Below, in pieces: positions 31,140 to 47,910 of a DNA stretch of 64,000 nt. Under the pieces are notes generated by a model, which was not told the DNA's origin, did not search any database, and saw only the letters and a program-made list of their open reading frames with translations. Numbering within the stretch: the stretch's first letter is position 1; each line of letters opens with the position of its first letter. This stretch comes from Nereocystis luetkeana (Eukaryota > Sar > Phaeophyceae > Laminariales > Laminariaceae), in assembly GCA_031213475.1 (NCBI GenBank), contig JARUPZ010000035.1, forward strand, positions 988,336 through 1,052,335. The letters run 5' to 3'. The position numbers and the translations under genes are program-made.

Positions 31140-31392
31140 TGTTATGATCACAGGTCTGGACACTTTGTATCCCTGGACAGGTTTGCCTATTAACTCGGTA
31201 CTCGTACTCGTTGGTACTCACGTGTGTTGTTTGCTTAGAGATAAAAGAAGGGCCAAGCTCGTGCCTCGCTGGGAAAACCCCTGGTTTTCCATCTAAGATA
31301 CGCCTCCCAAGTCCTACATATATATACGATCCCAATACTCGAACCCAGGTAATTACCGGGCTTTCCGCCTCATTCAAGGCAGTATCATAACA
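31140..31392 (-). mobile_element. LTR of Ty3/gypsy element (left copy, 3' LTR of the minus-strand element)
   Basis: 253 bp bounded by the inverted pair TGTTATGAT...ATCATAACA. It shares GACAGGTTTGCCTATTAA, GAGATAAAAGAAG, GCCAAGCTCGTGCCTCGCTG, CCATCTAAGATACGCC and CTTTCCGCCTCATTCAAGG, in the same order and orientation, with 41978-42253. On the minus strand it is preceded by a weak purine stretch (AGAGTGGG) that could be a polypurine tract. Confidence 0.8.
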
Positions 31393-31948
31393 CTAGCCCA
31401 CTCTGATGAGACATATATGCAGAATTATGGGATATTCATGGAAACCCCGATTCCACGAACTAGACCATGAGTCGAAGATGCGACTCCGCAAAACCCACAC
31501 CCACACCTCTGAATGGCGAGGCAACGAACCCGGCAAGGTACGTAAAAAAAGAAAGAAATGAAGGCCTAACCGTAAGGGACTGGAAGCAATCGTCAACGAA
31601 AGTTATCGCCATGCCACCCGCAACGGGGGGGTCGAGGGCAAATAAGATTCATGGAAAAGCGAAAAATGAACACCGAAAACGAGAAGAAAAATACCACGGA
31701 ATACGCCAAGAACCACCTAAACCCAGCCCACAACTCTGTAAACGCGTCCTGTGCCACAAATGAGTGGCCCTATCACCCAGACCTGCCCCGGCACTGAGGG
31801 GGGGGTACGCAGGACAAAATACGCAAAACCCATCTCCAACCCAGCCCAAAAAAAAACAAACCAGAAACACACCGAGCAGAAAAACCACCCCCCGAAAGTC
31901 CAGGAAAACGACAAGAAAAAATATCGAGTGAAGCCGAGAAGCGAAAGT
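31393..31948 (-). other. 3' untranslated region of the gypsy element
   Basis: Between the left LTR and the last recognisable coding segment. A/C-rich on the plus strand, no domain recognised. Confidence 0.4.
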
Positions 31949-32790
31949 CAGCTATCCATGGCGGCGCCTCGAGATTCATCTACGTTAGGCTGGACCCCCC
32001 GTGCAAACGCGCTAGCCAAGTGAATTTACAGACACCAAGAACTTCGTACCTCTCTCGTCGAAGTCGTGTAGCGCGCCGGAGAAAGAGGAAGCTTGATCGG
32101 TCCCGGGTCGTTCAAAAATCGAACCAAACATACTCCATCCGTTGGCGTAGTCGCGCTGATTTTCCCGAGCCACCACAGACCGTCGTCGCCCCTGTGCCAA
32201 AAGTGGGCCCCGTTGGCAAGCACGGTGATGCAGTATCGACGAAGCCAGTCGGCGTGCAATAGGCAGTCATAGCCGGGTGCCAGAAACCGCTCTCTCCGAG
32301 AAAACTTCCGTTGTGCCGCGTCGATTATCATTCGGTGGTACAGGCGGTTGGTTTGGCGGTGCTGGTTCGGGGTGTCAGCCCAGCAGCGCAAAATTGCGTG
32401 GCGAGAAAGCTGAAGGTCCATTTCCAGTTCCCAGGATGGACGGGATAATCCTGTCCAGTACGTGTCGTGCATCACCGCGATGACGCCACCTCGACCTCTA
32501 ACCGATTGGTGTCCGGTAATGTTTTCCACTTTGGCTCCCCACTGGGGCCGTCTGCCGTCCAAGGCACCTGGAAGCCCCCGCTCCGCTGACCGCGTACCCA
32601 GCCAGCCCGTGGAGCCAGCTGCTTCTGCTCTGGACCAGAGCACGTCGGACAAACCTGGACGCAGCGCTCTCCGCCATCGGGTCTACCTGCTTCTGGGCCA
32701 GATGAGGGAGTGTTTGAGACTGTTTTTCCTCTCGTGTTCTTCTGCTGTCCGACTCTGCTCGTACTCGTCGGATGGCCACGAGCGATGCTG
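31949..32790 (-). pseudogene. Gypsy Pol C-terminal tail with Tudor/SH3-like domain
   Basis: Minus-strand frame from about 32790 to 31949. A basic segment (SRHAILRCWADTPNQHRQTN) precedes LHADWLRRYCITVL, then GAHFWHRGDDGLWWLGKI and VCLVRFLNDPGPIKL. The aromatic WWLGKI and VRF strands resemble a Tudor or SH3-like barrel, as in chromatin-binding tails; it is not a classical chromodomain. The frame has one in-frame TAA (32022 region) before its natural end. In such elements this segment follows the integrase, but no integrase core is present here: the inverted gag block occupies its place. Assignment to the same element rests on strand, position inside the LTR pair and composition. Confidence 0.6.
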
Positions 32791-35700
32791 CCGCTCGTGA
32801 AATGCTTCCCGCGCCTCGCCCACAGGACGTCACACTGGATTTCAGTACCACGCCTGTTTTTCCCGCTGCTGTAGCCACTCACGGCAATTCTGTTGAGAAT
32901 TATCGCGCCGATGCGAATTTGAATACTACTGTTAGAGGGGGCGATGCTTTTAATAGGCCCTCCAGTACCGGTGATGTCCCAAAACCAACCACACTTGCTG
33001 TTAGTACACGTACAAACCGTGACGACCGCCCTTTTATCGTGACACCTTCTGGGGTCGATGCTCGCTCCCCACGCGTTCGTAGCGCTCGCCGAACGGCGCG
33101 CCATGCCTTGCTCACTGCTACACAAGTTGCTGGAACACAAGCCGCGGCTACTGCCTCCGCTGCTTCTGCGCTCCACGGCCTTGAGAACCACCGAATCCCG
33201 TCCCCCCCTGCCCCGGCACCTTCCCCTGCTCCGACATATTTCGCCCGCCCCCGCCTCAGCATGTCACGGACGGCAAATGCACTGGAGGAGGCATTCAACC
33301 CCGCCAGGTCTACCGGCGGCCGGAGGACCCACGGCTCCTCTCCCTCGTCGGGAGAGAGGAAACCCGAGCTCGCGGGCCCCATGACTCTGGAGGACGCCGT
33401 GGACCTCAAGCACCCTGACTCGGAGGACGAGCGAACGGCTGGCGGCCGCGAAACCTGTGCACAAGCGTCGCCTTTCCGGCTGCCTGGAGCCTGGACCTCC
33501 TTCCCTTCGCCGGACAGGGCAGCCATTCTCCAGCACTGGCCCGCATTTCGGGGCGCACCGCGGGATTCAAGGCGGAAGACCCGACGCGTGACCAGGCCGA
33601 CGTCATCGGGGCCGAGCAGACTCCTACTGCCGCTGACGGTCAACTCGACGTCGTCGTGGCCGAGCGGGCTTCGGCCGCCGCCGAGCCCTTCGGTGTCGCC
33701 TCGGAGCGAACCGCGAGACGCCGGGCGCACGCGCTCACGGCGGCCGAGCAAGAAGCATCAGCTGCCGCTCGCACCGTCACCAACGCTGCCAGAGCCTCGG
33801 AGACCGCCGACGGCGCCTCCAAGGCTGCCGCCGCGGTCTCCGAGGACGCCGCGGGCTCCGCCTCCCACGCCCAGGAATGCAGAGAAGCTCTGTGGGCTGC
33901 CCGGGCGAACAGCGCGACGAAGACCCGTCGTGTTGCCGAGGCAGGAGCTGAGCTGAGAGCCTTCCCCTCGTCGCGACAGAGACAATGGCCGCCCCAGTCC
34001 CCATTCCAGCCCCCGGACTTGGCCCCTTAGACCAGCACCTCTCCAGCGCCACCGCTGTTGACGCCCGGGCCCGAAGGCCCGGGGACATGGACCTTCTGCT
34101 GGGGAGTATCGCCTGCATGGCGGCTGGCCCTTACAAGTTGCTCCCTTCTGCCGCGGCGTCGGCGGTGGTCTCCTGTGCCCGCGACCTCCAAAACGTAATG
34201 CCAGAAGACAACCTCTCCTTCAACGAGGCCTGGAATTAGACGGCCATGGACACCTAGCAGCAAAAGCAGAGCCTGCCGCTCACCATGGACCTCGTGGTGA
34301 GCCTTCGGAAGGCGCATGATGTTTCACCCACCCCCATTTGCTGGCCTGATCCCCCGACCTACCTCGCCCACCTCAGGAGCCAGGAGCGCTACGGCCACCA
34401 TGGACACCAGCTCCCGGACGTGGGACAGGGCCCTGGGCTGGCCCATGCCCCCTTCAACCGCCCCTCGGACGACCGGGTCCACCGGCATCCGGGGGTGGGC
34501 GATAGCTCTGGGCCCCGCGCCAGCCCCCACCGCCGTGCTGGCGACCGGGACCACCGGCACCCGAGCATTGGAGGGCACGGCAGGTCCCGCCGCGGCCCTG
34601 CTACGGATAGCGACAGCGCCACATCTCGGCGAAACGGGGCTGGACGTCGCAGAAACCGAGGTCAGGGAAAGGAGAGCTCGAATGACGGGCGCAACAGGAG
34701 ATACCGCCCACGGGGAGACGCTTCTCGACCCAGTTCCTCCTCGGACGGCAGCAGCCCCACCCCCGAGGTCTCGGGCGCTACCACCAAGAGAAAAGTGGTT
34801 CCCTCTCTCACCGATGTTGCTTCTCCCGCCGCGCTTCTTGGTCGCTTGACCATGCGTGATGACCGCGCCATGCCTGTGTCGTCTAACCTTGCTCACTCTT
34901 GAAAATCGGCGATCGACTCTGCCGGCGCAGCCGCCGCGAAAAAGCACACCACCGACGATCAACGGGCGTACAAACACCTGGGACTCAAAGACATCTCTCG
35001 CATTTCTGTCCTACCTTTTCCCTCTTCGATTAACCCTTCCGATGCCGCGCAGCAACTCACTCGTTCGGTAAAGGCCGGCGCGTCTGAAAATCTCATTATC
35101 TGCAACGATGGCAGCCATGAAGGCCTTTGTTCTACCGATTGGATCCCCGGCTGGGAGTACGCCCTCAAGAAATATTTCGCGCGCGCCATCGCACCTGACA
35201 AGCCCACGACGCCCCCCCTCACTACCTTGATCGCTGATGTTTTCGGACAGGTGTGGCGCGCCCTCGCAGCCGGAGCCACGGGCCCGCCGGCGTTCACGCT
35301 CCTCCTGAGGTTGCTGAGCAACTACTTCGACCGCACCGAAATGGGGGCCAGCCACACCAAGTTGCATAATTTTGGCGTGCCTAACGGGACCCCATTTTGC
35401 GATTTTAGTCGTGCATTTCGAGGGGTGGTGTCGGCAGCGACGGCGACTGAGCGTCTTTTAGCACCGGGGGTGGAGGTTGTTTTGGAGGTGATTCGGCTGG
35501 CAGTCAACGAGCAGTACCCCAGCTTGATGCCCACGCTGTACCCGGGAGTTTCAGCTACGGTATCGAGGCCGTTCGGTAAGTTGGACGCCATGTGGGTGGC
35601 TTTTTGAGACTCTCGCGAATACTAAGACACCTGCCATCAATGGCGTAAGATATTTTCTTTGTCTGCTTCTTCGACGGGTGTGCGGTTATCCGCCCCGTCG

Positions 35701-36435
35701 GGGCCCCGTCCCACCAGCATTGGTCGCGGCCAGGGCCGGACGCTTCCCCAGTCGCCTGCTGGGCAGACGGGATCGCGCAATAATCCGCTTGTGTTGAGCG
35801 TCCACAAATCCATCCCTGACTGCCTCGACCCGTGGTTTGACACCTCTTCTAGCTGCTGGCCCCTAGAAGAACACCACTACGCTGAAGTTCACGCTGTATG
35901 CATGTCCATCCAGACAGAGGACCCTGCCCTCTGGAGCGGCGTTTTTTCATCGTCCGCCCGCGCGGTCGTCCTCAGCGAATACCGAGGTCATTGCTTGAAC
36001 TACCACGAAGACTCACACTCCCTCACACAGTGTAGACACCCCTTTCGAAATCTTAGCGGCATTTTGAAGCCTGACCTCGGAACGCTAGGTGACGACGGCG
36101 AGGCGTTCCTTCGTTGGCAAGAACGCATGATCAGACACCGCCGCGAGAACAATTCACGATCGAACAAGCACAACCAGACGAAACAAAGGCGTCGTTCCGG
36201 CCACTCGCGTGGGCAGCACCACGGCCAGGGTCTGCAGAACAGACAAGGTGGCGACTATGACACACACGCGGAACGAGGACACCAACAGTCTAACTCCAAC
36301 CATCACGGTGGTGGTTCCACCTCTCGTGCCTCTTCCACCCCAGCTCCCGCCTCGGGGGTTCGCTACGGTGCTTCGCATGACCCGGGCGGAAACCCGAACG
36401 GACGCCAGCCAGGCATCTTCCGCGCCGGTAACTGA
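32772..36435 (+). pseudogene. Gypsy Gag remnant, inverted relative to pol
   Basis: Starts at ATG 32772 and can be followed through three frames: 32772-33600, then about 33600-34030, then 33985-36435, the last with stops near 34237, 34255, 34900 and 35605. The order is: Ala/Pro-rich N-terminus; Ala-rich, probably coiled-coil segment (SERTARRRAHALTAAEQEAS); Arg/Ser-rich basic linker (34.4-34.8 kb); a globular part beginning KHLGLKDISRISVLPFP (34970), likely capsid; and a CCHC-type zinc knuckle near 35990-36040, CLNYHEDSHSLTQC, in which the second Cys is Tyr. A Gly/His/Gln-rich tail follows. Several frameshifts and stops make it inactive. Confidence 0.65.
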
Positions 36436-37404
36436 CAGGTCGACGGCGGTTTGCCTCCTCCTACTGGTCCGCCGCCAGCATTGCCGGGAGGAAAAACATT
36501 GATTTCACAAGATGCTCGCGTCCCAGGCTTGCTCAGGGCTCAGCGCCGGCCTTTTTTCCCGCTCCTACCCCGCGCGTTGCTTTGTACTTATGGACCGACG
36601 CAGCGACTCAGCTCCACTGGTTTTACCGGGGAGCCCCCAGGCGTCTTCCCCGACGTCGGGAGCCCGCGCCTCAAACTCCGCTCCCGTCAACCTGGGCACG
36701 AGAGCAGGCACGATAAACGCCGCTCTCCCGAACCACGCATCGTGCAGCACCACGAGGGTCGCGCCGTCGCGTCGTTTTTTTCAGCGAGGGTGTCCCCCTC
36801 CCCCACCTCCCGGCCATGCAGTGACGGTCGGTTTGAGGTGCGGAAAGGCCAACATTGAAACCCCGAGATCTCGGTTGAAGCTCGACTCGGTGTTTCCTCG
36901 CAATAACGGTAGCTGCTCCAAACTTTTTCCTATCAAGGAGGAGTCGACAAGAGTAGCTACCTCGTCCCCCTTCCCCACCAGGTCTACAGGACGGAAGCCC
37001 TTTTCGGTGGACCCTTTGTTGCCTCCCCCTTGAGCACCGTTCTTGACGTCGTCTACAGGGTCTGCAGGCTTTCTTTTGTCTTCGCGCACGCCACTCCACG
37101 TGCCAGCGCTCCTTCGGCACCAGTGGCAGAGGAGAAACCTGCCACTGCCCGTCGAGCCACTCGTGACTCCACGGCCCCCCGTCAGATCAACCGGGCAGCA
37201 TACCCGTGAAATTCGGAAGAATCGCAGCAGCAGACCGGGCTCAGATTCCCCTGCCCCCTTTGGTCTAGGATAGAGATCATCGGGCGCAGTAAGAGAACTT
37301 TCTGGGCGATTTTTTGCCTACGGGCAATGGTGACACAAAGCCAGTATACGTGGAACCGGACTCGCCTCGTGCATCAGGGGCTCAGTGTTCACAGGGAAGC
37401 AAAC
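36190..37404 (+). repeat. Inverted-repeat arm 1 (Gag C-terminal tail)
   Basis: This 1.2 kb is repeated on the minus strand at 40735-41975 at high identity (shared words include GCTCGCGTCCCAGGCTTGCT and GTCGGTTTGAGGTGCGG). Arm 2 has an extra copy of a short GACGTCGGGGAAGACG-type unit (41475-41525). Arm 1 ends at about 37404, in the middle of the segment that in arm 2 leads into the NADAR domain. Confidence 0.85.
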
Positions 37405-39926
37405 CCCCCCACACACACACTAGCCCACTCGAACCGACACGAGGGGTCGGCGAAGAGCGAGTGCGAAGCCCGCAGGCTCGTATGAGGAAAATACCACCGT
37501 CTTCGACGGGGGTGGGGCTGATAGACCCACTGCGGTCGTGTTCTGTGGCGGACTCCTGCAAGCGGGAGAGAAAATCAGCATCTCCGTAGGCGCTGCCCTT
37601 ACGGTACTTGAGGGTGTAGTAGAACGCATGGAGGACCTCGAGCAACCGTTGGACGCGCGCGTTATGGTCCCTTACTTTGCCGATACTCCCAAGTGATTTG
37701 TGGTCCGAAAGTATGGGAATCTTTGTGCCCCATAGGGAACTTCGGAGTCGTTTTGATGGCCAAGACAATGCTGCCTGCTTTCAAGTCTAGCGGGGTCCAG
37801 TGCCTTTCGAAATCGAGGGTAGCGCGACTGATATAAGATGGGCCGCACTGAGCCGTCCGGTAGTTCTTGTTCGAGCGCGGCACCAAAACCGTCGATGCAG
37901 ACGTCACAGTACACGTGGACGGGCGGGAACCGTCGGCTACAGCGTCGCGGTCCGGGAAGATCAAAATTGGCGGGGCAGCGAGCTCGGCGAGGATCTTGCG
38001 AACGATAACTTCCTAGGCCGGCATAAAGACGTACTTAACCCCCTTCCGGAGAAGGGCGGTGAGAGGGCGGATCACGATAGACAGGTCGCACAGGAATTTG
38101 CGATAATATCCCACGCCGCCCATCAGCGCACGGGCCTGCTTGAGGTTCTTGGGCATGGGCAATTTCATCTAAGCCGAATGTTTTTCCGCGTTGGGGCGTA
38201 TACCCGCGGGCAAAATGGAGTGGCCCATAAATTTTGCGTCCGTGGCGCCAAGGCGAGCCTTCGAGGGGGAGAGCTTGAGGTTGTGTTGGCGCAGGCGTTC
38301 GAAGAGGGCTCGTATCGTCTACGATCCTCTTGATGTGGGCCGCCGGATCAGAGTCGAAGATCATCACATCATCGAGGTAGGCCGCCACCTGTGCCAGACC
38401 TTTAATGACTTCGTTAATCACTTTGACGAACCAGCCGGGCGAAGCATTACCGCCTTGGGGCATGAAGAACCACTCGTAGAGGCCCGTGGGGGTGCAAAAC
38501 ACTGTGAGAGGGACGGTGTCCTTGTGCGCGGTAATCTGGTGGAACGAGGAGACCAAAGCGAAGGGGGGAAAACACCCGTTCCTTCCCCAGGGAGTCGAGG
38601 ACTTGGTCCACGCGAAGAATAGGCAGATGGCTGAGGCGGCTGATATAATTGAGTTTCTTTTAGTTCACGGTGATCCGAACGCCTCCAGACTTCGTCGGGA
38701 TGACCACCAGCGGGCTCAAGTACGGAGAGGTCGAGCGCTGGATCAGGCCGGCCGCCAGGTACTGGTCCAAGGTGGCCTCCAACTCCTTGGCCATAATGGG
38801 ATTGAACCGGTGCGGCCTGGACGTGACAGGAGCGCTACCTCCAGAGACCGAAATCACGGAAGACATCAACGAGCAGAAACCAAACCGACTCGAACTTCGA
38901 GAAAACGTCAGGAAATTCGCGGAGAACACCTCCCAGCACTTCGATGGCCTCAGGGGTCCAGTCCGTGCTGTGAAGATCAGAAGAAAGCGCTCGCAGATGT
39001 AACGTCAAACGTGCCCAGACGCGCAGGAACGAAGCGCGCTGTTCTGGGCTCAAACGCTCGAGTAGTGCAGGCGAGGGCGGGGCTGGAGGTGCGAGGGGTG
39101 AAGCTGTAACTGCGGAGACGGGAGCCACCTCAGATAAACCGAAGGGAGGGCTGGGGGCTCTGTTGTCCTGCTGCAAAACGTCCATCGGGACGCTCAGTAG
39201 TGGGCCGTGGATGACGTCGAGATTATCCCCCGATTCGAGATCTGCCACTCTAACGAGGGGAAGAACCTGCCGCCCGGAAGCGACGAAGTGCTCCTCAACC
39301 GAGGGTAGGTCGGGCAGGGGCATCATGTCGACCAGGTAGTGTCCAGTGAGTGCCGGAGAGGCCATCGTGGCGAACCAAGAAGTTGGGGACCGTCGGATAG
39401 GGTGACGCCTACAGCGCCCTCGTAGCGTAGATGGAACCCTCCAACCGAAGCGGCGGGGTCGATGGCGTAGACGGACGTGCCTGTCGGGACGTGGTGAACT
39501 ACGCCCATCTCGCCGAAAACGCGTGGGTCTGACGGCCGAGGTGGCAGAGAGCGGTAGGAGCGGCTATTTTAACGCATCCAGCCGCGACGTCCCAGCAGTA
39601 CTGCATGCTGCATCACGGAGGGGGGAACCACGCAGACCCACACTGCGAGGGAGAACGTAGGTTCATTTTCTCCAACAAAGTGGACGTTCAGACGCACACT
39701 TGTCGCAGAGGGGCCGATCCACCAAAACCCAAAAAGAACGAGGGGTGCATTTCTGCTTGCACGTGGTGGATGCCGCACCAACGGAAAGTATGCGATCCAA
39801 AATATTTCGTCGAATGAAAGTCTGCGGGCAGCCAGTACCAAGAAGCTCCACGCAACAATAAGGCGCAAGAACGCCAGCTCCGCTGTGAATCGCGAGTTTG
39901 GTTGTAAAAGAGGCGTCGTCGAGGGT
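37405..39926 (-). pseudogene. Ty3/gypsy Pol remnant: protease, RT, RNase H
   Basis: Read from high to low coordinates. The aspartic protease core lies at about 39926-39570; the active-site triad at 39839 reads GTG instead of DTG (context VELLGTGCPQTF), so it is inactive, and a frameshift follows. A linker covers 39509-38960. RT begins with RPHRFNPIMAKELEATLDQY (about 38810) and SPYLSPLVVIPTKSGGVRI, shifts frame, and continues with VSSFHQITAHKDTVPLTVF, GLYEWFFMPQG and the catalytic YLDDV box (38380-38370). RNase H lies at 37914-37440 (VYCDVCIDGFGAALEQEL, then SDHKSL and KGSAYGDADFLSRL), again in more than one frame. Order protease-RT-RNase H is that of Ty3/gypsy. It ends at the inversion point near 37404; integrase is missing. 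Confidence 0.85.
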
Positions 39927-40193
39927 AATGGTGCCCCCGACGAGGCAGGGGCCGTGTTCTGACAGCGCGAGGGAGGGGTCGACACTAGGGGCGCCCGCCA
40001 AAACCTCGGGGCTGTGATCAGCGGACGCGTCAGAAAAACAGGTCGAAAACTCCGAGGGAGGACCTGGGCATGCGCAGGCCTCGGCCGAAAGGCGTGGCGG
40101 CGCTGGTGAAATCTCACGAATTCTGTCAGTTGTGGTCGGAGTGAACAATTGATGAGAGGAGGCGGGGTGTGCCAACCCCGCCTCACTTGAGCA

Positions 40194-40625
40194 AACGGTG
40201 TCGCGAACGGCGGAAAGAGCTTTCCCGAGATTTTTTTTCCCACGCCATCGAGAGGGGTCTTGAGCCTCGGGGTCTTCTGCCCGGAGACCGATGCCCCCCA
40301 CGGGGTCAAAAGGGCTGGCTTCAGCCAATTGTTTTGTGCCAGTGCTCGCTAGGTGCTGCTTCATCGCTGGGTTCTGCGTTAATTTGTCAAAATAACCAGC
40401 AAGGACGGCGCCTCTCCAAAAGCAGTCCCAGAAAGCGCAATCGAAGATATGCACGCCTTGACCTAGGCGTTTGTGCTCGCGTGGATCTGGCGAGGCCATA
40501 ACCCGCTCCGCTGCGTCGTGGTCCTAAAAAACGCGGGCCTTTTCAGCCATCAAATACTGCTCCACGCAGGAATATGACACATCGTCAACGACAAAAGACG
40601 AGGGGGACCACTGCGAAAAATAGAA
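40194..40625 (-). pseudogene. NADAR (YbiA-like) domain inside gypsy polyprotein
   Basis: Continuous 144-codon frame broken only by one TAG (about 40526). Family landmarks in order: FSQWSPSSF, YSCVEQYLMAEKA (with the conserved Glu), MASPDPREHKRLG, TQNPAMKQHL then LAEASPFDPV, GIGLRAEDP, and KKNLGKALSAVRD. These match the whole YbiA/NADAR fold (usual length about 150 residues), except that the Trp expected in the D-x-WG-x-G motif is Gly. Known members act on ADP-ribose-linked or riboflavin-pathway N-glycosides; a role in a retroelement is inference. The domain lies in frame between the Gag tail and the protease, so it belongs to the element, not to a neighbouring gene. The stop looks like a single Gln-to-amber change. 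Confidence 0.85.
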
Positions 40626-40734
40626 GGGGGGTCTGCCAGAACAGTACCAACCGCTCCGTTGAATACTCGAGAGTAGGGTTAAAACCGACGGTGCCGAGTC
40701 ATCGGTGGCCGCAGTTGCGGTGTGTGGGGGAGGG

Positions 40735-41975
40735 AGTGTGCTTCTCTGAGAACACTGAGCCCCTGATGCACGAGGCGAGTCCGGTTCCACGTATACTGGC
40801 TCTGTGTCACCATTTCCCGTGGGCAAAAAATCGCCCAGAAAGTTCTCTTACTGCGTCCGATTATCTCTGTCCTAGATCAAAGGGGGAAGGGGAATCTGAG
40901 CCCGGTCTGCTTGACAAGAGCTACGATTCTTCCGAATTTCACGGGTATGCTGTCCGATTGATCTGACGGGAGGCCGTGGAGTCACGAGTGGCTCGACGGG
41001 CAGTGACAGGTTTCTCCTCTGCCACTGGAGCCGAAGGAGCGCTGCGCACGTGGAGTGGCGTGCGCGAAGACAAAAGAAAGCCTGCAGACCCTGTAGACGA
41101 CTTCAAGAACGGTGCTCGAGTAGGAGGCAACAAAGGGTCCACCGAAAAGGGCTTCCGTCCTGTAGGCCTGGTGGGGAAGGGGGACGAGGTAGCTACTCTT
41201 GTTGACTCCTCCTTGATAGGGAAAAGGGTTGAGCGGCCACCGTTATTGCGAGGAAACACCGAGTCGAGCTTCAACCGAAATCTCGGGGTTTCAATGTTGG
41301 CCTTACCGCACCTCAAACCGACCGTCACTGCATGGCCGGGACCCTCGCTGAAAAAAACGACGCGACGGCGCGACCCTCGTGGTGCTGCACGATGCGTGGT
41401 TCGGGAGAGCGGCGTTTATCGCGCCTGCTCTCGTGCCCAGGTTGAGGGGAGCGGAGTTTGAGGCGCGGGCTCCCGACGTCGGGGAAGACGTCTGGGGGCT
41501 CCCGACGTCGGGGAAGACGCCTGGGGGCTCCCCGGTAAAACCAGTGGAGCTGAGTCGCTGTGTCGGTCCATAAGTACAAAGCAACGCGCGGGGTAGGAGC
41601 GGGAAAAAAGGCCGGCGCTGAGCCCTGAGCAAGCCTGGGACGCGAGCATCTTGTGAAATCAATGTTTTTCCTCCCGGCAATGCTGGCGGCGGACCGGCAG
41701 GAGGAGACAAACCGCCGTCGACCTGTCAGTTACCGGCGCGGAAGGTGCCTGGCTGGCGTCCGTTCGGGTTTCCGCCCGGGTCATGAGAAGAACCGTAGCG
41801 AACCCCGAGGCGGGAGCTGGGGTGGAAGAGGCAGGGGAGGTGGAACCACCACCGTGATGGCTGGAGTTAGACTGTTGATGTCCTCGTTCCGCGTGTGTGT
41901 TATAGTCGTCACGTTGTCTGTTCTGCAGGCCCTGGCCGTGATGCTGCCCACGCGAGTGTCCTGCCGTCGACGCCA
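40735..41975 (-). repeat. Inverted-repeat arm 2 (Gag tail next to the right LTR)
   Basis: Minus-strand copy of 36190-37404. Here the Gag tail (HSRGQHHGQGLQNRQ) starts only a few bases inside the right LTR, so the primer-binding site and the N-terminal two thirds of Gag have been deleted from this side. It runs without a break into the NADAR-containing frame (MPTGNGDTEPVYVEPDSPR at 40826). Confidence 0.85.
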
Positions 41976-41977
41976 CT

Positions 41978-42253
41978 TGTTATGATCAGAGATCAGAACA
42001 CTTTTAATCCTAGGACAGGTTTGCCTATTAAGTCTGCACTCGTACTCATGTGTGTTGTTTGCTGAGAGATAAAAGAAGAGCAGGCTGTATTCCTTTCATG
42101 CACGCGGAGACTGAGAGCCAAGCTCGTGCCTCGCTGGAAAAACCCCTGGTTGTTCATCTAAGATACGCCTTCCAAGTACTACAGATACGACCCCAATACT
42201 TGAACCCAGGTAATTACTTGGCTTTCCGCCTCATTCAAGGAAGTATCATAACA
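41978..42253 (-). mobile_element. LTR of Ty3/gypsy element (right copy, 5' LTR of the minus-strand element)
   Basis: 276 bp, TGTTATGATCA to AGTATCATAACA, same orientation as 31140-31392. It is about 20 bp longer, with an insertion near 42090 (TTCCTTTCATGCACGC). Flanking 5-mers do not match those of the left LTR, so no target duplication is preserved. Confidence 0.8.
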
Positions 42254-43028
42254 CCTGCCCATGAAAACCCATTTTTTTTCAAGCGCCTGAACATTAAGCG
42301 TGTGGCCTCCAAAATCTGATTTTTCTTGTTTTCTTTAGGGTATAGGTACCATGGGACCCACTTGGACCTGCAGAGAGTCGCTCCGTTTGGTTGGCTGCGG
42401 TGGAAGCGCCAAGAGTATTTATTCTGGCACCCCCCCCCCCCGTTGCCAGCTCTCAAGCTTCTCGACTATCCTCGCGGAACGGCCTGCTCGGTATGAAATT
42501 ATCTTGCGTTACCAGACTTGAGACCACCTCGACGCGGGGTGGGGCAGGCGAACTGCCGTGCTTGTCCACGGTGCTGTAACATGACTCCGGTGACCACGGA
42601 AAACAACAAAACATACATCGCAACAACCTAACTGATGCACATCGTACACCTCAAAAAAGGAAATGTTAAATCGGCGAACGTGTGTATGTGAAAATACGTA
42701 CGTACGAGTACAGAGTTTATATGACAAGAATTTCAACCGAGGGACCGCAGACGCACACGCAGAGAAAAAGCAGTGTACGTATGGCCTCTCTGATTGGTTC
42801 AAAATTGATCAAAATCAGTTGAAAGCTAGACCGAGTAGACAAAGTCAGGTATACCATGGCCTTTTCGAGCCAAAATCAGGTACGGTGTCCATGGCCTTTT
42901 CGAGCCAAAAGCAGGTACGGTGTCAGTCTGGCCAATAGCAGGGCTGCTGGCGTTTGATTTGTACTTGTTCCAAGCATTAATTAGTTATGGCCCAAAAGTG
43001 GCCAGGTATACCTGATTTCGGCTAACTC
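42254..43028. other. No gene; short direct repeats
   Basis: A poly-C run (42431) and a 36-bp unit, AGCCAAAATCAGGTACGGTG followed by TCCATGGCCTTTTCG, present two to three times (42846-42920). A related CAAAATCAGGTAC word occurs left of the gypsy LTR at 31045. Confidence 0.5.
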
Positions 43029-43034
43029 ATTGTT

Positions 43035-43428
43035 TTTTTTTGTCATGGAAGCCCACGGAAACTCCCACGGAAGCTTTCACTACTACTGCCACTACCAGCC
43101 CTGCACTACTTCCATGGAAGTAAACTCCGATTCCATGGAAGTTTCCGAGGAATGTTTGGGAGCTTTCGCGATAATAGCGCAAACTTCCACGGAAGTTTCT
43201 GTGAAATACATATGGAATTTTTCATGGCAGCTTCCGTGGAAGCTTCTGTGGAAGCTTACGCTGCTTCCACGAAAGCTATACTTCCTCCGTAGAAGCTTTC
43301 ATGTGGTTGCATGTAATCTTCCGTGGAAGTAGTAGAAGCTGTATGGAAGCTGACGCCATCCCCACTACTTTCACGGAAGCTACTTCCGTTGGGGCTTTCA
43401 TGTGCTTGCATGGGAAGCTTCCGTGGAA
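43035..43428 (+). repeat. CTTCCRYGGAAG palindrome field, left part
   Basis: Repeated 12-bp palindromes such as CTTCCATGGAAG, CTTCCACGGAAG and CTTCCGTGGAAG, at irregular spacing of 10-60 bp. The field continues at 46771 after the copia insertion. Confidence 0.8.
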
Positions 43429-43433
43429 GTCCA

Positions 43434-43848
43434 TATTAAGAAATAGGCAGTACCAGGTATGTACATAGCCTATTTAGTCAATGCTTCGTAAGTTGCAGTC
43501 AAACTAGTTACACCGTATTATGAGTAACGGGAATTTGTATGACCTTCGAGAAGTTCTTGTAGTCGACGAGTTGCAGCAACAAGCCGTCGGTAGACGTTGC
43601 TGTAAAAGGCCATGAAGAAGATTGAGGAACTGGAGTGTTTGCGCACCCCCCACGTTCACTCGTCAAACCGCATCTGAAGTTACCACAGTTCATCGTCCTA
43701 AGCCTTTATTGCCCTGAAGCGGCCTTTTTCAAGAGTCATTCATTCTTCACATCCTCGACACACAGCGTGTCTGCTCGGTCTGCTGAAAGACTGACAGCGC
43801 CACGCTTTGCAGCCTACTGTGCAGGGATACCATCGAATATTCTTAACA
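43434..43848 (+). mobile_element. Ty1/copia 5' LTR
   Basis: 415 bp, TATTAAGAAATAGGCAG to CTTAACA (the first G is mutated to A). It differs from the 3' LTR by a TACCAGGTA at 43451 replacing a plain TA, and by a stretch after the 'tagcctatt' block. GTCCA precedes it (43429-43433). Confidence 0.9.
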
Positions 43849-43860
43849 GGTTATGAGCCT
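43849..43860 (+). other. Primer-binding site of the copia element
   Basis: GGTTATGAGCCT directly follows the 5' LTR. Similar GGTTATGAGCC sites are used by copia elements primed by initiator methionine tRNA; the pairing was not checked against a tRNA of this organism. Confidence 0.55.
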
Positions 43861-44305
43861 CGTTTTTCAGCGCTGCGCGCGCATCGGGAACCTTTGTGGG
43901 CCCGGAGCAGGAGCAGCAGCTGGGGGTTTTACACAAAGCTTCTCAGTTTTCCTTTGATTTTACACAAAGCTCCTCAGCTTTATTACCATTTTTCAGCGCT
44001 CCGACGACACAGCTTGGTTCCGCGATTCAGCGGCCCAACACAGACTCGGGCGGGTGTTTCTTTTATTTTTCGACACCGCGACGGAGACTCGGGTTCGTCT
44101 TCATCTATTCTACTCTATCTACTATAGATTCCAACTCAGACTCGGGCGAGTTTGCCTATTCGTTTGTTTGTTGGTCTGTTTAGATCTGTTTGTTTCTTTG
44201 TTTCTTTGTTTTTTACAGTACAGCGACCGAGACTCGGATCCCTCTTTTATCTGCTATATCGTGTGCCTTGAAGGAACAGTTCCGCTTTAGCGTCGAGAGG
44301 TCGGC

Positions 44306-46212
44306 ATGGAGGGCGTGGCGTTCAGCAACACCCAGGCGGTCAATAAGAACTGCCCCGTCTTCGCCGGCAAGGACAAGGAGTCGTTTCAAGAATACAAGAG
44401 CAAGCTGCGCGTCTGCCCGCCTGTCTACAGCAAGGCCGTATTCGTAGTGTTTCAAGGCAAGGCTCAGCCATCATCCACTCTGGGCAGCACCGACACCCCG
44501 ACGCTCAATGCTGTCGCTGAGCACAAATGGCTACAGGTGAACCAAGATCTCTGGAGTGGTTCTACTTCTCACCACATCTGGCTCCGCCAACAACACCGTC
44601 CAGAAGTCCGAGGGGAAGCGGCTAGAAGATGGAGCGTGGCATTGACAGCTGGCGTGAAAGGCTCTGACTGAGACGTAAAAACGACCATACTAAGGAGGCC
44701 AGAAGGTTGTGCCACGAAAAACTCGTCAACACGAAGATGGAGCCCGGCCAGGATCCGGTCGACCTATTTTTCGTTTTGGACGAATGCCGTGACCTCCTCG
44801 AGGAAATGGGATATACAGTACACGACGAGAGGTACGAGGACAACGTTCTTCAAGCCCTTCCGCCCGAGTACGAGAGGGTGCGAACCGCCAGCTACGAGAG
44901 GTGGGGCTTTGGACTGGACGACATTCGGCACATGGTACACACGATGTACGTCGACAACATTTCGCGCTCCGTCAACGCTAAGCCGATCGCAGGCCGCGGC
45001 ATTGCCATGCAGGTGGTAGGGCACACCAGCAGTGACGAGGCGTTCTGCGATAGAGGTTCACCCTATTTTTTCTAAGGCTCCTCACTTCAGGAGCTCCACA
45101 GCTCACCCGAAAACTGGCTTCAGCAAAAATCAAATTCCATGCGGATGAATAATGCCACGGTCTAAGAATGCAATTACGTCATTCGTCGAAACAATAATGG
45201 CATTCCGACGATTTGGGTTCGAGGAGCCCCGTCATTCAGAAATCGTTTTGGCGGAAATGTGCCGCGTCGCAGAGCAACAACTGCAAACGATTCGGACACA
45301 TGACGCAGGACTGCGCCATCCCGAAGAAGGAGCACCGGCGTGGGCCTATTCCGGGGGGTCAGCAACATCAGCGAAATCAGTACTTGCCCTGCCACGGAAA
45401 GACAGGATCAGGAGACGCGAGGAGAAGGGGAGATAGAAATCAGTGGTGCTCTCTCCATAAGAACACTACGCATAGCGATGCGGACTGCCGCACCCAGCAT
45501 GGTGTCGGCAGTGCAAACGCCGGTAACGCCAGCTATGCCGCTAACTACATCGGCCACCCGATATCATACCCCGAAGTGGAAGCACCGACGGGGGAGAAAG
45601 CATTTTGGTCACTCGGCCCCACGGATGAACCAGTCGACACCTGTGGGATGTTCGGATCTTTCGGCGGCGTCAGCGGAGAAGAGACTGGGGGCTCGCTCTT
45701 CATGGTCGAGGAAGAACCGGCCCACCAACTGGGATTCCAAGAGCATATCGTCGGGGGTTTGGCGGCTATGACCCGTGCTCTAGTGACGTTGGCTATTCTC
45801 CACTATCGGTGGCTCTCGTTTGGCAACTCCCTATATGCCCGAATGATCAAAAACACCTATGGATAGCCCGACGTCTTTGGGGGCGTCACCATTACGGAAG
45901 ATGGGTCGGCTCTCTCGATCGATCCCACAGCGAGGACACGGACACGCTACAACAACGACCCCGTAAATGTGCTGGTGGACATTATTTCGACGACGCCATC
46001 ATCCGCGGGTTTCAGGACAGACTGGAAAGGTGTAAGGTGTTGGACGAGCCACGAAACATCTCAACTGCAGGAGGGGGGCAATTGAACGGCACTGCGCAGG
46101 GAGTGCTCCAGGGCCACGTCATCGACGCTTGCACCGTACTGTCCACGCCGCCCCCCTGCGGGCCCCGCAGCAGGAAGCACGAAAAACAACCCGCGGCCAA
46201 ACGAGAAAAGTG
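44306..46212 (+). pseudogene. Ty1/copia Gag (to protease region) remnant
   Basis: Starts at ATG 44306 (MEGVAFSNTQAVNKNCPVFA). After a short frame break it continues from 44707 with PGQDPVDLFFVLDECRDLLE, LQALPPEYERVRT and DDIRHMVHTMYVDNISRS, a UBN2-type copia Gag pattern. The CCHC knuckle at about 45270-45315 reads SNNCKRFGHMTQDC, the first Cys being Ser. Downstream pieces include QWCSLHKNTTHSDADC, GGLAAMTRALVTLAILHYRW and a frame that approaches the protease (GHYFDDAIIRGFQDRLE). At least three frame changes and several stops. Integrase, RT and RNase H are absent: only 2.5 kb separates the LTRs, so most of pol has been lost. Confidence 0.75.
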
Positions 46213-46375
46213 AACTATTCCGGAAAAAACGGCCATTTGGTACAAAGTAATATCAGTGTTCTAGTGAAGAAGTAGCGTTGCTTCCAACAAGTATTGGCGA
46301 TCGTTAGGCATGATCAGGACTTAATCATGTTCTATCGTCTTGGGGTATTCATCGTTTATGTATTGCGACTTGCAT

Positions 46376-46385
46376 TGAGGGGGGG
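46376..46385 (+). other. Polypurine tract of the copia element
   Basis: GAGGGGGGGT lies directly before the 3' LTR start TGTTAAG. Confidence 0.7.
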
Positions 46386-46765
46386 TGTTAAGAAATAGGC
46401 AGTATGTACATAGCCTACTGGGTCTTCGTATTATGAGTAACAGGATATTTAGATGACCTTTCAGCAGTTCTTGTAGACGACGAGTTGCAGCAACAAACCG
46501 TCGATAGGCGTTGCTGTAAAAGAGGTCATCAAGATAGAGGAACTGGAGTGTTTGCACACCCCCCACGCTCACTCGTCAAACCACATCTGAAGTTACCACA
46601 GGCAGTTCATCGTCCTAAGCCTTTATCGCCCTGAAGCGGCATTTTTCAAGAGACATAAATTCTTCTCATCCTCGATACACAGCGTGTCTGCTCGGTCAAT
46701 TGAAAGACTGACAGCGCCAATATTTGCTGCCTACTGTGCGGGGGTATCATCGAATATCCTTAACA
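46386..46765 (+). mobile_element. Ty1/copia 3' LTR
   Basis: 380 bp with perfect TGTTAAG...CTTAACA ends, followed by GTCCA (46766-46770), which repeats the GTCCA left of the 5' LTR: an intact 5-bp target duplication. The 3' LTR lacks the TACCAGGTA insertion. Confidence 0.92.
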
Positions 46766-46770
46766 GTCCA

Positions 46771-47910
46771 TACTACTTCCATGGCAATACGAAGAGTGTT
46801 CAACTCGGTCTAATAGATATCAGAACGTTCTGGGAGTGTTCAGAAGAAAACGCGGGAAAACAAAACAAGCCCCGTTTGGCGCCCTTCTCCCGCTTGGCGC
46901 TGTGACCCCGCAGGGCCCTTCCCAATGTGCAACCCTGCTCCCATTTTGTGGTGCAGAAATACAGTCAGCCCTCCGCAGGGGCGCCCGGAGGCCTACCAGC
47001 CACCCCGATCCCAGGCACCCCACCGATCGTCCACCCAGCCACGAAAAAAACAAGACCAGAACATCTCGCCAAAATAGCTTCCATGGAAGCAGTGGAATCT
47101 TCTACTAGTATGGGAGTCTGCAAGCTTCCATGGAAGTAGCGGAAGTTTCTGTGCAAGTTGTGAAAGTTGCCCGCATATACGGCCGACCTACGCGGTCTTC
47201 CGCACTACTGCTTGTTTCCGTGGAAGTCCACGGAAAATTCCATGGAAGACTCCGTGGAAGCTGTGGAAGTTTGCGTGGGAGTACTGGAAGTTTCCGCGAA
47301 AGTAGTGGAAACTTCCGTGGAATCTTCCACTGCTTCCACGGAAGCTACTTTCGTGGAAGCTTCCGTGGAAGTTCGAACTACTTTTATGGAAGCTGCCGAC
47401 ATCCCCATGGAAGTTGTATCCATACAAGATTCCATTTCGTGTGCCCGAAGACAGAAAATAAATAATTACCTCTATTTCCAGTACGAAATAATTAAATTGA
47501 AACCGAGGTCAATTTATTTAATTATTTTGGTCAGATAGCATTTCCAATCCGGAAAATAAATAATTACAGCTTTCCTCGAAGATTTTGATATTTGAAACGA
47601 GGTTTGCACTTTGCATGACACCCCTCTTCCAGTGGAAGCGCGTGGAATGTTGGGGAAGTGCGTGGTTTTATGGATGTTTGTGGTGTTCGTGGAAGAAGAG
47701 ACAGCTCCTCGTGGACAATCGTGGAAGTAAAGACAGTTCCTCGGAAGCTTCGGTGGACGATCGAATAAAGACAGTTCCTCGGGAGCTTCCGTGAAACCTT
47801 CCATTGATACTTCCGCAGCTTTCACGGAAGCTTTCACCGCTTCCATGGAAGCTTCCACCGCTCCATGGACGTCTCCGCGCTTCCGTGAATCCGACGGAAG
47901 TTTCCATGCA
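46771..47910 (+). repeat. CTTCCRYGGAAG palindrome field, right part
   Basis: Many copies of the 12-bp palindrome and near-variants (for example 47078, 47125, 47333, 47360, 47838). They are densest at 47075-47420 and 47680-47900, separated by an AT-rich stretch. Frames read as Val/Glu/Ser repeats but are not supported as coding. Confidence 0.8.

Follow-up and report, generated by a model that had tools for sequence, protein, structure and literature searches.

A YbiA-type NADAR domain ahead of the protease in Ty3/gypsy retrotransposons of Nereocystis luetkeana

Characterised NADAR proteins, among them oomycete and Escherichia coli YbiA-type members, take ADP-ribose off guanine in DNA (PMC11543638, PMC11125620), and every member tested in PMC11833690 does so in RNA too. 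The closest described system to the one considered here is a lineage of Gypsy elements in Ectocarpus, in which PMC12477816 reported in 2025 a NADAR arrangement in all families, for example Gypsy-12_Ec32, together with a putative chromodomain after the integrase. According to the same paper, blastp matches outside Ectocarpus are almost only bacterial, possibly as a result of horizontal transfer, and the domain may help to process the RNA intermediate. NADAR-like domains are also described there in the ORF1 proteins of Tx1 LINEs (long interspersed nuclear elements) of the Pacific oyster, which are likewise retroelements but of the class without long terminal repeats (LTRs). We analysed a stretch of 64,000 nucleotides from the brown alga Nereocystis luetkeana (assembly GCA_031213475.1, contig JARUPZ010000035.1, positions 988,336 to 1,052,335; hereafter the window), which holds a dead Ty3/gypsy element with a NADAR domain in its polyprotein. 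The arrangement itself is already known, and the present elements, compared by description only, fit the published account. A first-pass annotation of the window, made from its letters alone, had not known the domain as a standard part of gypsy elements; given PMC12477816, the combination is not new. What we add to that paper, as far as the parts of it considered here go, are figures from another genome on carriage seen from the reverse transcriptase (RT) side, active-site counts, substitution ratios and a tree placement with bacterial relatives.

NADAR as a part of Pol, in the window and across the genome

The anatomy of the element is clearest in L131, a copy elsewhere in the same genome. 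Its Pol runs, as we are practically certain, from a spacer through NADAR (YbiA type, E 1.9e-50), protease, RT (RVT_1, 9.9e-28) and RNase H (RT_RNaseH, 4.3e-30) to integrase (Integrase_H2C2, 2.9e-13), the protease being recognised by motif only. Two further matches fall below their cut-offs: rve (E 0.083) and, after the integrase, where the Ectocarpus lineage has its putative chromodomain, Chromo (E 0.024; 15 bits, cut-off 25.1). L131 therefore shows the protease-RT-RNase H-integrase order of a Ty3/gypsy LTR retrotransposon. The window copy has the two LTRs of such an element, and all that is left of its integrase region is a C-terminal remnant.

In the window, a Pfam profile search placed NADAR (PF08719) on the minus strand, in a single frame that one TAG divides in two (Table 1). 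The two pieces adjoin at this codon. Searched alone, the first (window:40527-40826:-, residues 66-100) matches profile positions 9-52 with E 1.3e-5 and 26 bits, which by itself is below the cut-off of 35.1, and the second (window:39666-40523:-, residues 1-109) matches positions 54-161 with E 1.5e-22 and 81 bits. Both pieces, like the domain of L131, match the NADAR family profile. The second continues in frame to an aspartic protease motif, which reads LGTG here and LDTG in relatives. On the plus strand, no NADAR-like reading was seen over 40194-40625 in frame 1, the sole plus frame translated there. These results bear out the first-pass annotation, which had described a NADAR frame with a single TAG, lying in a gypsy polyprotein directly before a degenerate protease of the same strand and frame: all the family landmarks that it named are present in the window translations, and the profile search that it proposed gave significant matches for the two pieces.

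The window domain is nevertheless damaged. Its frame lacks the conserved FWQ that precedes PPS-FSQW, and it departs from its family immediately upstream of FSQW. Three ADP-ribose contact positions are altered (R79Q, R93W and W133G, in the numbering of the Phytophthora nicotianae NADAR) and, together with the TAG, leave this copy with an incomplete ADP-ribose site; the Glu at position E125, the YbiA-type catalytic residue, is present. Because of the stop, the frameshifts, the lost protease Asp and these three substitutions, we conclude that the window copy is an old, broken and dead element.

Its relatives are in better condition. The assembly searched for own-genome copies totals 465,085,209 bases, distributed over 1987 contigs. 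All 150 places scored with the NADAR profile, the best of 778 candidates in a ranking that favours good domains, exceed the Pfam cut-off; the match has no internal stop in 130 of them, and more than 30 lie in open frames of 2000-2428 residues. A reciprocal query without NADAR, consisting of the protease-RT connector and RT of copy L135 (447 residues), yielded 94 scored places out of 1869 candidates, and at least 79 of these have a NADAR upstream on the same strand at a distance of 556-1026 bp. The 79 are made up of 63 at 737-1026 bp, 13 at 556-1020 bp and three read by eye at 790-820 bp (on C40, on C23 and at one place on C1, where the NADAR is broken in two). Identical match lengths and scores recur across two sets of contigs (C13, C893, C1069, C1201, C1313 and C1511; C10, C987, C1041, C1184 and C1795). 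Some small contigs of the assembly are thus probably duplicates or were left unmerged, and raw copy counts include them; about six of the 79 NADAR-bearing places resemble duplicate contigs, and six of the remaining 15 resemble duplicates of two places.

We also fetched 19 own-genome copies of 10 kb, all chosen by their NADAR and excluding the window's own stretch (L148). A protease match was found in 17 and an RT match in 15, and in all 19 the strand that bears NADAR carries one or more additional Pol pieces downstream of it; in one, L134, the protease is partly inverted. Among database proteins, a search with the 286-residue window piece returned 128 at E<=1e-3 (120 listed), a yield beyond chance, and two further searches started from relatives returned 35 and 264 (120 of the 264 listed), in overlapping sets. 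The 1348-residue Pol frame P0167, which stands for 126 member sequences, has NADAR at residues 145-294, RVT_1 at 803-961 and RT_RNaseH at 1055-1159. Five proteins (P0145-P0148 and P0150) form a separate NADAR group (support 97 in a quick tree) and were excluded from the element counts; the three of them that were scanned with Pfam showed no RT match.

Because own-genome copies carry NADAR whether they are approached from the NADAR side or from the RT side, the domain is part of the element and not an accidental insertion, which settles the question, raised by the first-pass annotation, of whether other copies lack it. The idea that a host or bacterial gene fell by chance into this one element has next to nothing left in its favour: the window copy is rearranged and adjoins an inverted gag fragment, but NADAR stands at a like distance in the 79 RT places, all 19 fetched copies continue into Pol, and the database Pol frames have the same domain order. 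These other copies rule it out.

Active site, constraint and bacterial relatives

The P. nicotianae residues E43, K50, R79, W89, E125, D130 and W133 hold or act on ADP-ribose (PMC11543638). They were placed on our alignment through motifs and through alignments to the P. nicotianae structure (PDB 8bau), whose sequence matches the database relative P0009 with E 1.8e-11 and the second window piece with E 0.0027. At the catalytic position E125, Glu marks the YbiA subfamily, Asp the BC4488 type and His the phage type (PMC11543638). Own-genome counts were made on 36 stop-free copies picked by NADAR score, two of 38 having been dropped for stops: K50, G78, W89, R93, D130 and W133 are present in all 36, and E43, R79 and E125 in 35. 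Among 76 database element proteins the figures are 71 for E43, 74 for K50, 74 for G78, 72 for R79, 75 for W89, 71 for E125, 74 for D130 and 72 for W133; R93 is found in only 13, and 59 have Cys there. In 87 bacterial and viral rows, E43, K50, G78, W89, E125, D130 and W133 are invariant, R79 occurs in 82 and R93 in 33. The seven ligand positions of the P. nicotianae NADAR are thus kept in the stop-free copies, which differ from that protein and from E. coli YbiA in being fused into a retroelement polyprotein and in not keeping position D86; Asp at D86 is the main residue in none of the own-genome, database or bacterial and viral sets.

The first-pass annotation had also called for substitution ratios across copies. 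In our sample, picked by NADAR score and free of stops, the ratio of nonsynonymous to synonymous differences per site (pN/pS) of NADAR is 0.38 (19 copies), 0.49 (12) and 0.55 (4) in three families, and that of the protease in the same families is 0.86 (16), 0.55 (5) and 1.22 (3). One copy that fits no family (L128) was left out, and stop-free RT and RNase H copies were too few (5 and 8) to be split in this way. Between families, NADAR has a pN of 0.30-0.40 and a pS of 0.76-0.80, which is near saturation, and the protease a pN of 0.27-0.34 and a pS of 0.72-0.79. When P0167 is compared with four distant relatives, NADAR is 50-58% identical, the protease 42-56% (over 52-118 of 125 residues) and the linker 28-45%, and the spacer is hardly alignable; against the nearer P0221 the values are 72% for NADAR, 77% for the protease, 58% for the linker and 55% for the spacer. 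By these alignments NADAR is about as conserved between lineages as the protease, and more so than the linker and spacer, suggesting that it is under constraint similar to that on other Pol domains. The active site and the substitution ratios together suggest a working enzyme in the family, and intact copies probably encode an active ADP-ribosylhydrolase or N-glycosidase.

Certain subfamilies seem to have a recurrent stop at the NADAR N edge. Ten TAG-bearing NADARs, part of those listed, were fetched. Eight of them (L149-L156, of the window's family) share one TAG, which replaces the TAT for Tyr that stop-free copies have in PPS[Y]FSQW; the rest of their domain is well kept, and a neighbouring Gln-to-His change is common to seven of the eight. 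In L119 the same codon is TAA. It looks from these shared changes as if a subfamily of the window's family spread while carrying the stop. In the young L107-type family, the L111 copy reads TAG in place of the Trp codon in LF[W]DSSSVFSQW, again at the NADAR N edge. Ten more L107-type copies seem, from match starts and stops with the DNA not seen, to have a stop near that site, and in five of them about 2054 residues are open downstream of it. A leaky stop or help in trans is possible in this family.

As to origin, a single scan of prokaryote genomes turned up 511 related places, and we retained 79 loci from them. The best bacterial relatives, mainly from Myxococcota and Planctomycetota (for example L001-L004, L010, L012 and L013; L005 comes from a metagenome-assembled genome of Pseudomonadota), are 55-61% identical to the element domain over its length but are stand-alone genes. 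They are the nearest stand-alone relatives found, in searches in which host NADAR genes were not looked for. Five frames neighbouring bacterial NADARs at three loci have Pfam matches to DUF4340, DUF6304 or zinc ribbons or none at all, and no ADP-ribosyltransferase family is among them.

Our trees hold element, bacterial and viral sequences and leave out host and other eukaryotic stand-alone NADARs. The careful tree has 73 rows: 20 from elements (four thinned from the 36 own-genome copies, 15 from the 76 database proteins, and the window), 39 bacterial and 14 viral. In it, 19 of the 20 element rows form one clade (98/98), which is joined to 11 bacterial rows (94/92). The L107-type row lies outside this clade on a long branch. 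In an earlier quick tree of 88 rows, made without the L107-type family, a branch with SH-aLRT 93 has all 21 element rows on the same side. This picture fits capture from bacteria, once or twice. Separate acquisition by the L107-type family, so that Gypsy elements gained NADAR more than once, is rather unlikely in our judgement. It would account for the position of that row, for the union of all 20 element rows in only 2% of 200 bootstrap trees and for the 53% identity of the L107-type NADAR to two bacterial rows as against 46-51% to other element rows; yet a single clade of all 20 is not rejected (p-AU 0.346), the position of NADAR in Pol is the same in L107-type and other elements, and the RT regions of the L107-type family and the window's family share about 65% identity.

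Two other sources were considered. An origin from an oomycete-type protein looks less likely than a bacterial one, by a rough comparison in which queries and programs differ (47 bits for 8bau against P0009, 191-202 bits for L001-L014 against P0125). For viruses, the first scan confirmed no viral contig as a source; the second gave 19 loci of 38-51% identity, and the 14 viral rows thinned for the tree lie outside the main element clade.

The window copy and its surroundings

Table 1. Parts of the NADAR-bearing copy in the window, in order along its minus strand
Feature	Position	Strand	Basis
5' LTR, TG...CA read on the minus strand	41978..42261	-	direct repeat of 31140-31400
Spacer upstream of NADAR; gag itself missing on this side	40651..41963	-	tblastn with L131 spacer, 58-79% identity; blastn to the same point
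NADAR domain, YbiA type, broken	40197..40631	-	PF08719 in two pieces; 76% identity to L131
TAG stop within the NADAR frame	40524..40526	-	translation
Linker and aspartic protease, first Asp of DTG replaced (LGTG)	39446..40190	-	tblastn with L131, 75-76%, two pieces; LDTGS in relatives
Protease-RT connecting region, two pieces	39105..39442	-	tblastn with L131, 78-86%
Reverse transcriptase, four overlapping or frameshifted pieces	38034..39059	-	PF00078 E 1.1e-10; tblastn 66-86%
RNase H, two pieces	37445..38033	-	PF17917 E 6.9e-5, 23.4 bits, just below the 24.8 cut-off; tblastn 58-71%
Gag and spacer of a second, oppositely oriented copy	34041..37420	+	inverted repeats; blastn to L131 15-3435
Remnant of the part that follows the integrase core	32018..32619	-	tblastn with the end of the L131 integrase frame, 60-77%
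3' LTR	31140..31400	-	direct repeat of 41978-42261

The outer direct repeats, which we read as LTRs, are identical in 220 of 247 ungapped columns (89%), with 51 gap columns, and no target-site duplication was seen at their outer edges. Pfam gave no protease match in the window, and that assignment rests on motif and homology. Seven own-genome copies match the stretch from spacer to RNase H (37418-41969) at 83.6-85.2% over 4.3-4.6 kb. This stretch stands head-to-head with the oppositely oriented fragment of the same element family, the inverted repeat being 36199-37420 and 40720-41961. The fragment stops 74 bp short of the NADAR start (which is at 3509 in L131), and the junction at about 37420 may reflect a nested insertion or a template switch.

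Beyond the element, LTR-like repeats at 43389-43849 and 46340-46766 (363 of 418 ungapped columns identical) enclose a plus-strand body with a copia-type gag piece at 44707-45072 (PF14223, E 2.1e-4, below the cut-off). Pfam shows no pol family in the four frames between these repeats, and the unit 43389-46766 is possibly a short gag-only element. Short repeats with units like CTTCCATGGAAG were noticed by eye near the element, at about 43030-43440 and 47000-47900. An Rfam scan of the window gave no match above the gathering score.

Possible roles of the domain

Because the active site is kept and characterised NADARs have the corresponding activities, an ADP-ribose-removing enzyme is the simplest reading of the domain. 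The best explanation overall, to which we give slightly less than even confidence, is a Pol-borne ADP-ribosylhydrolase acting on element RNA or cDNA. NADAR would be made as part of Pol, near its start, would enter the particle with Pol and would be present at the site of reverse transcription; there it would split ADP-ribose, or a similar adduct derived from NAD, from guanine in element RNA or cDNA by hydrolysis of the N-glycosidic bond, and removal of the adduct would keep the template copyable. Taken by itself, the claim that NADAR works on nucleic acid of the element, which the first-pass annotation had also raised along with a role against a host defence, is a tentative proposal drawn from analogy with characterised NADARs, and one that we trust somewhat less.

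Several points weigh against this explanation. The activity, the substrate and the location in the particle are all things that we infer. E. coli YbiA has another known reaction, on riboflavin intermediates (as cited in PMC9303266), and the matches listed hold no useful literature on a host enzyme that ADP-ribosylates the element, the genome not having been searched for one. In 15 of the 94 RT places no NADAR is among the matches listed (the best 150 per NADAR list), and certain subfamilies apparently multiplied with a stop in place at the NADAR N edge. The choice of stop-free copies by NADAR score lowers the substitution ratio and overstates conservation, and, given the protease values, the ratios also carry drift after insertion.

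Among the alternatives, the domain might be an N-glycosidase whose targets are RNA ends, or NAD- or riboflavin-type compounds that are reactive or damaged and need clearing; its role would then lie in housekeeping or RNA processing and not in counter-defence. We consider this unlikely, while noting what speaks for it: the riboflavin reaction of YbiA, the dependence of the nematode trans-splicing protein SNA-3 on residues of its NADAR domains (as told in PMC9303266) and the RNA-processing role proposed in PMC12477816. A general metabolite role, however, leaves the fixed place of NADAR in Pol across lineages unexplained. Still less probable is that the domain has been retained for nucleic-acid binding or for assembly, as a fold without enzymatic function; some active-site changes in database copies and the inherited N-edge stops would agree with it, but the positions for catalysis and ADP-ribose contact belong to the best conserved in the domain, in near-invariant columns.

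An extended form of the Pol-borne ADP-ribosylhydrolase explanation can also be put forward, although we think it improbable: that a Gypsy group made a bacterial-type guanine-ADP-ribosylhydrolase a standing part of its replication, cleaning its own RNA or cDNA and so escaping a putative host defence by nucleic-acid ADP-ribosylation, with the N-edge stop setting the dose in some subfamilies. An active domain would mean that a retrotransposon lineage carries its own eraser of a nucleic-acid modification best known from bacterial toxin-antitoxin and phage conflicts, and this would point to nucleic-acid ADP-ribosylation as a means by which these algae control their transposons.
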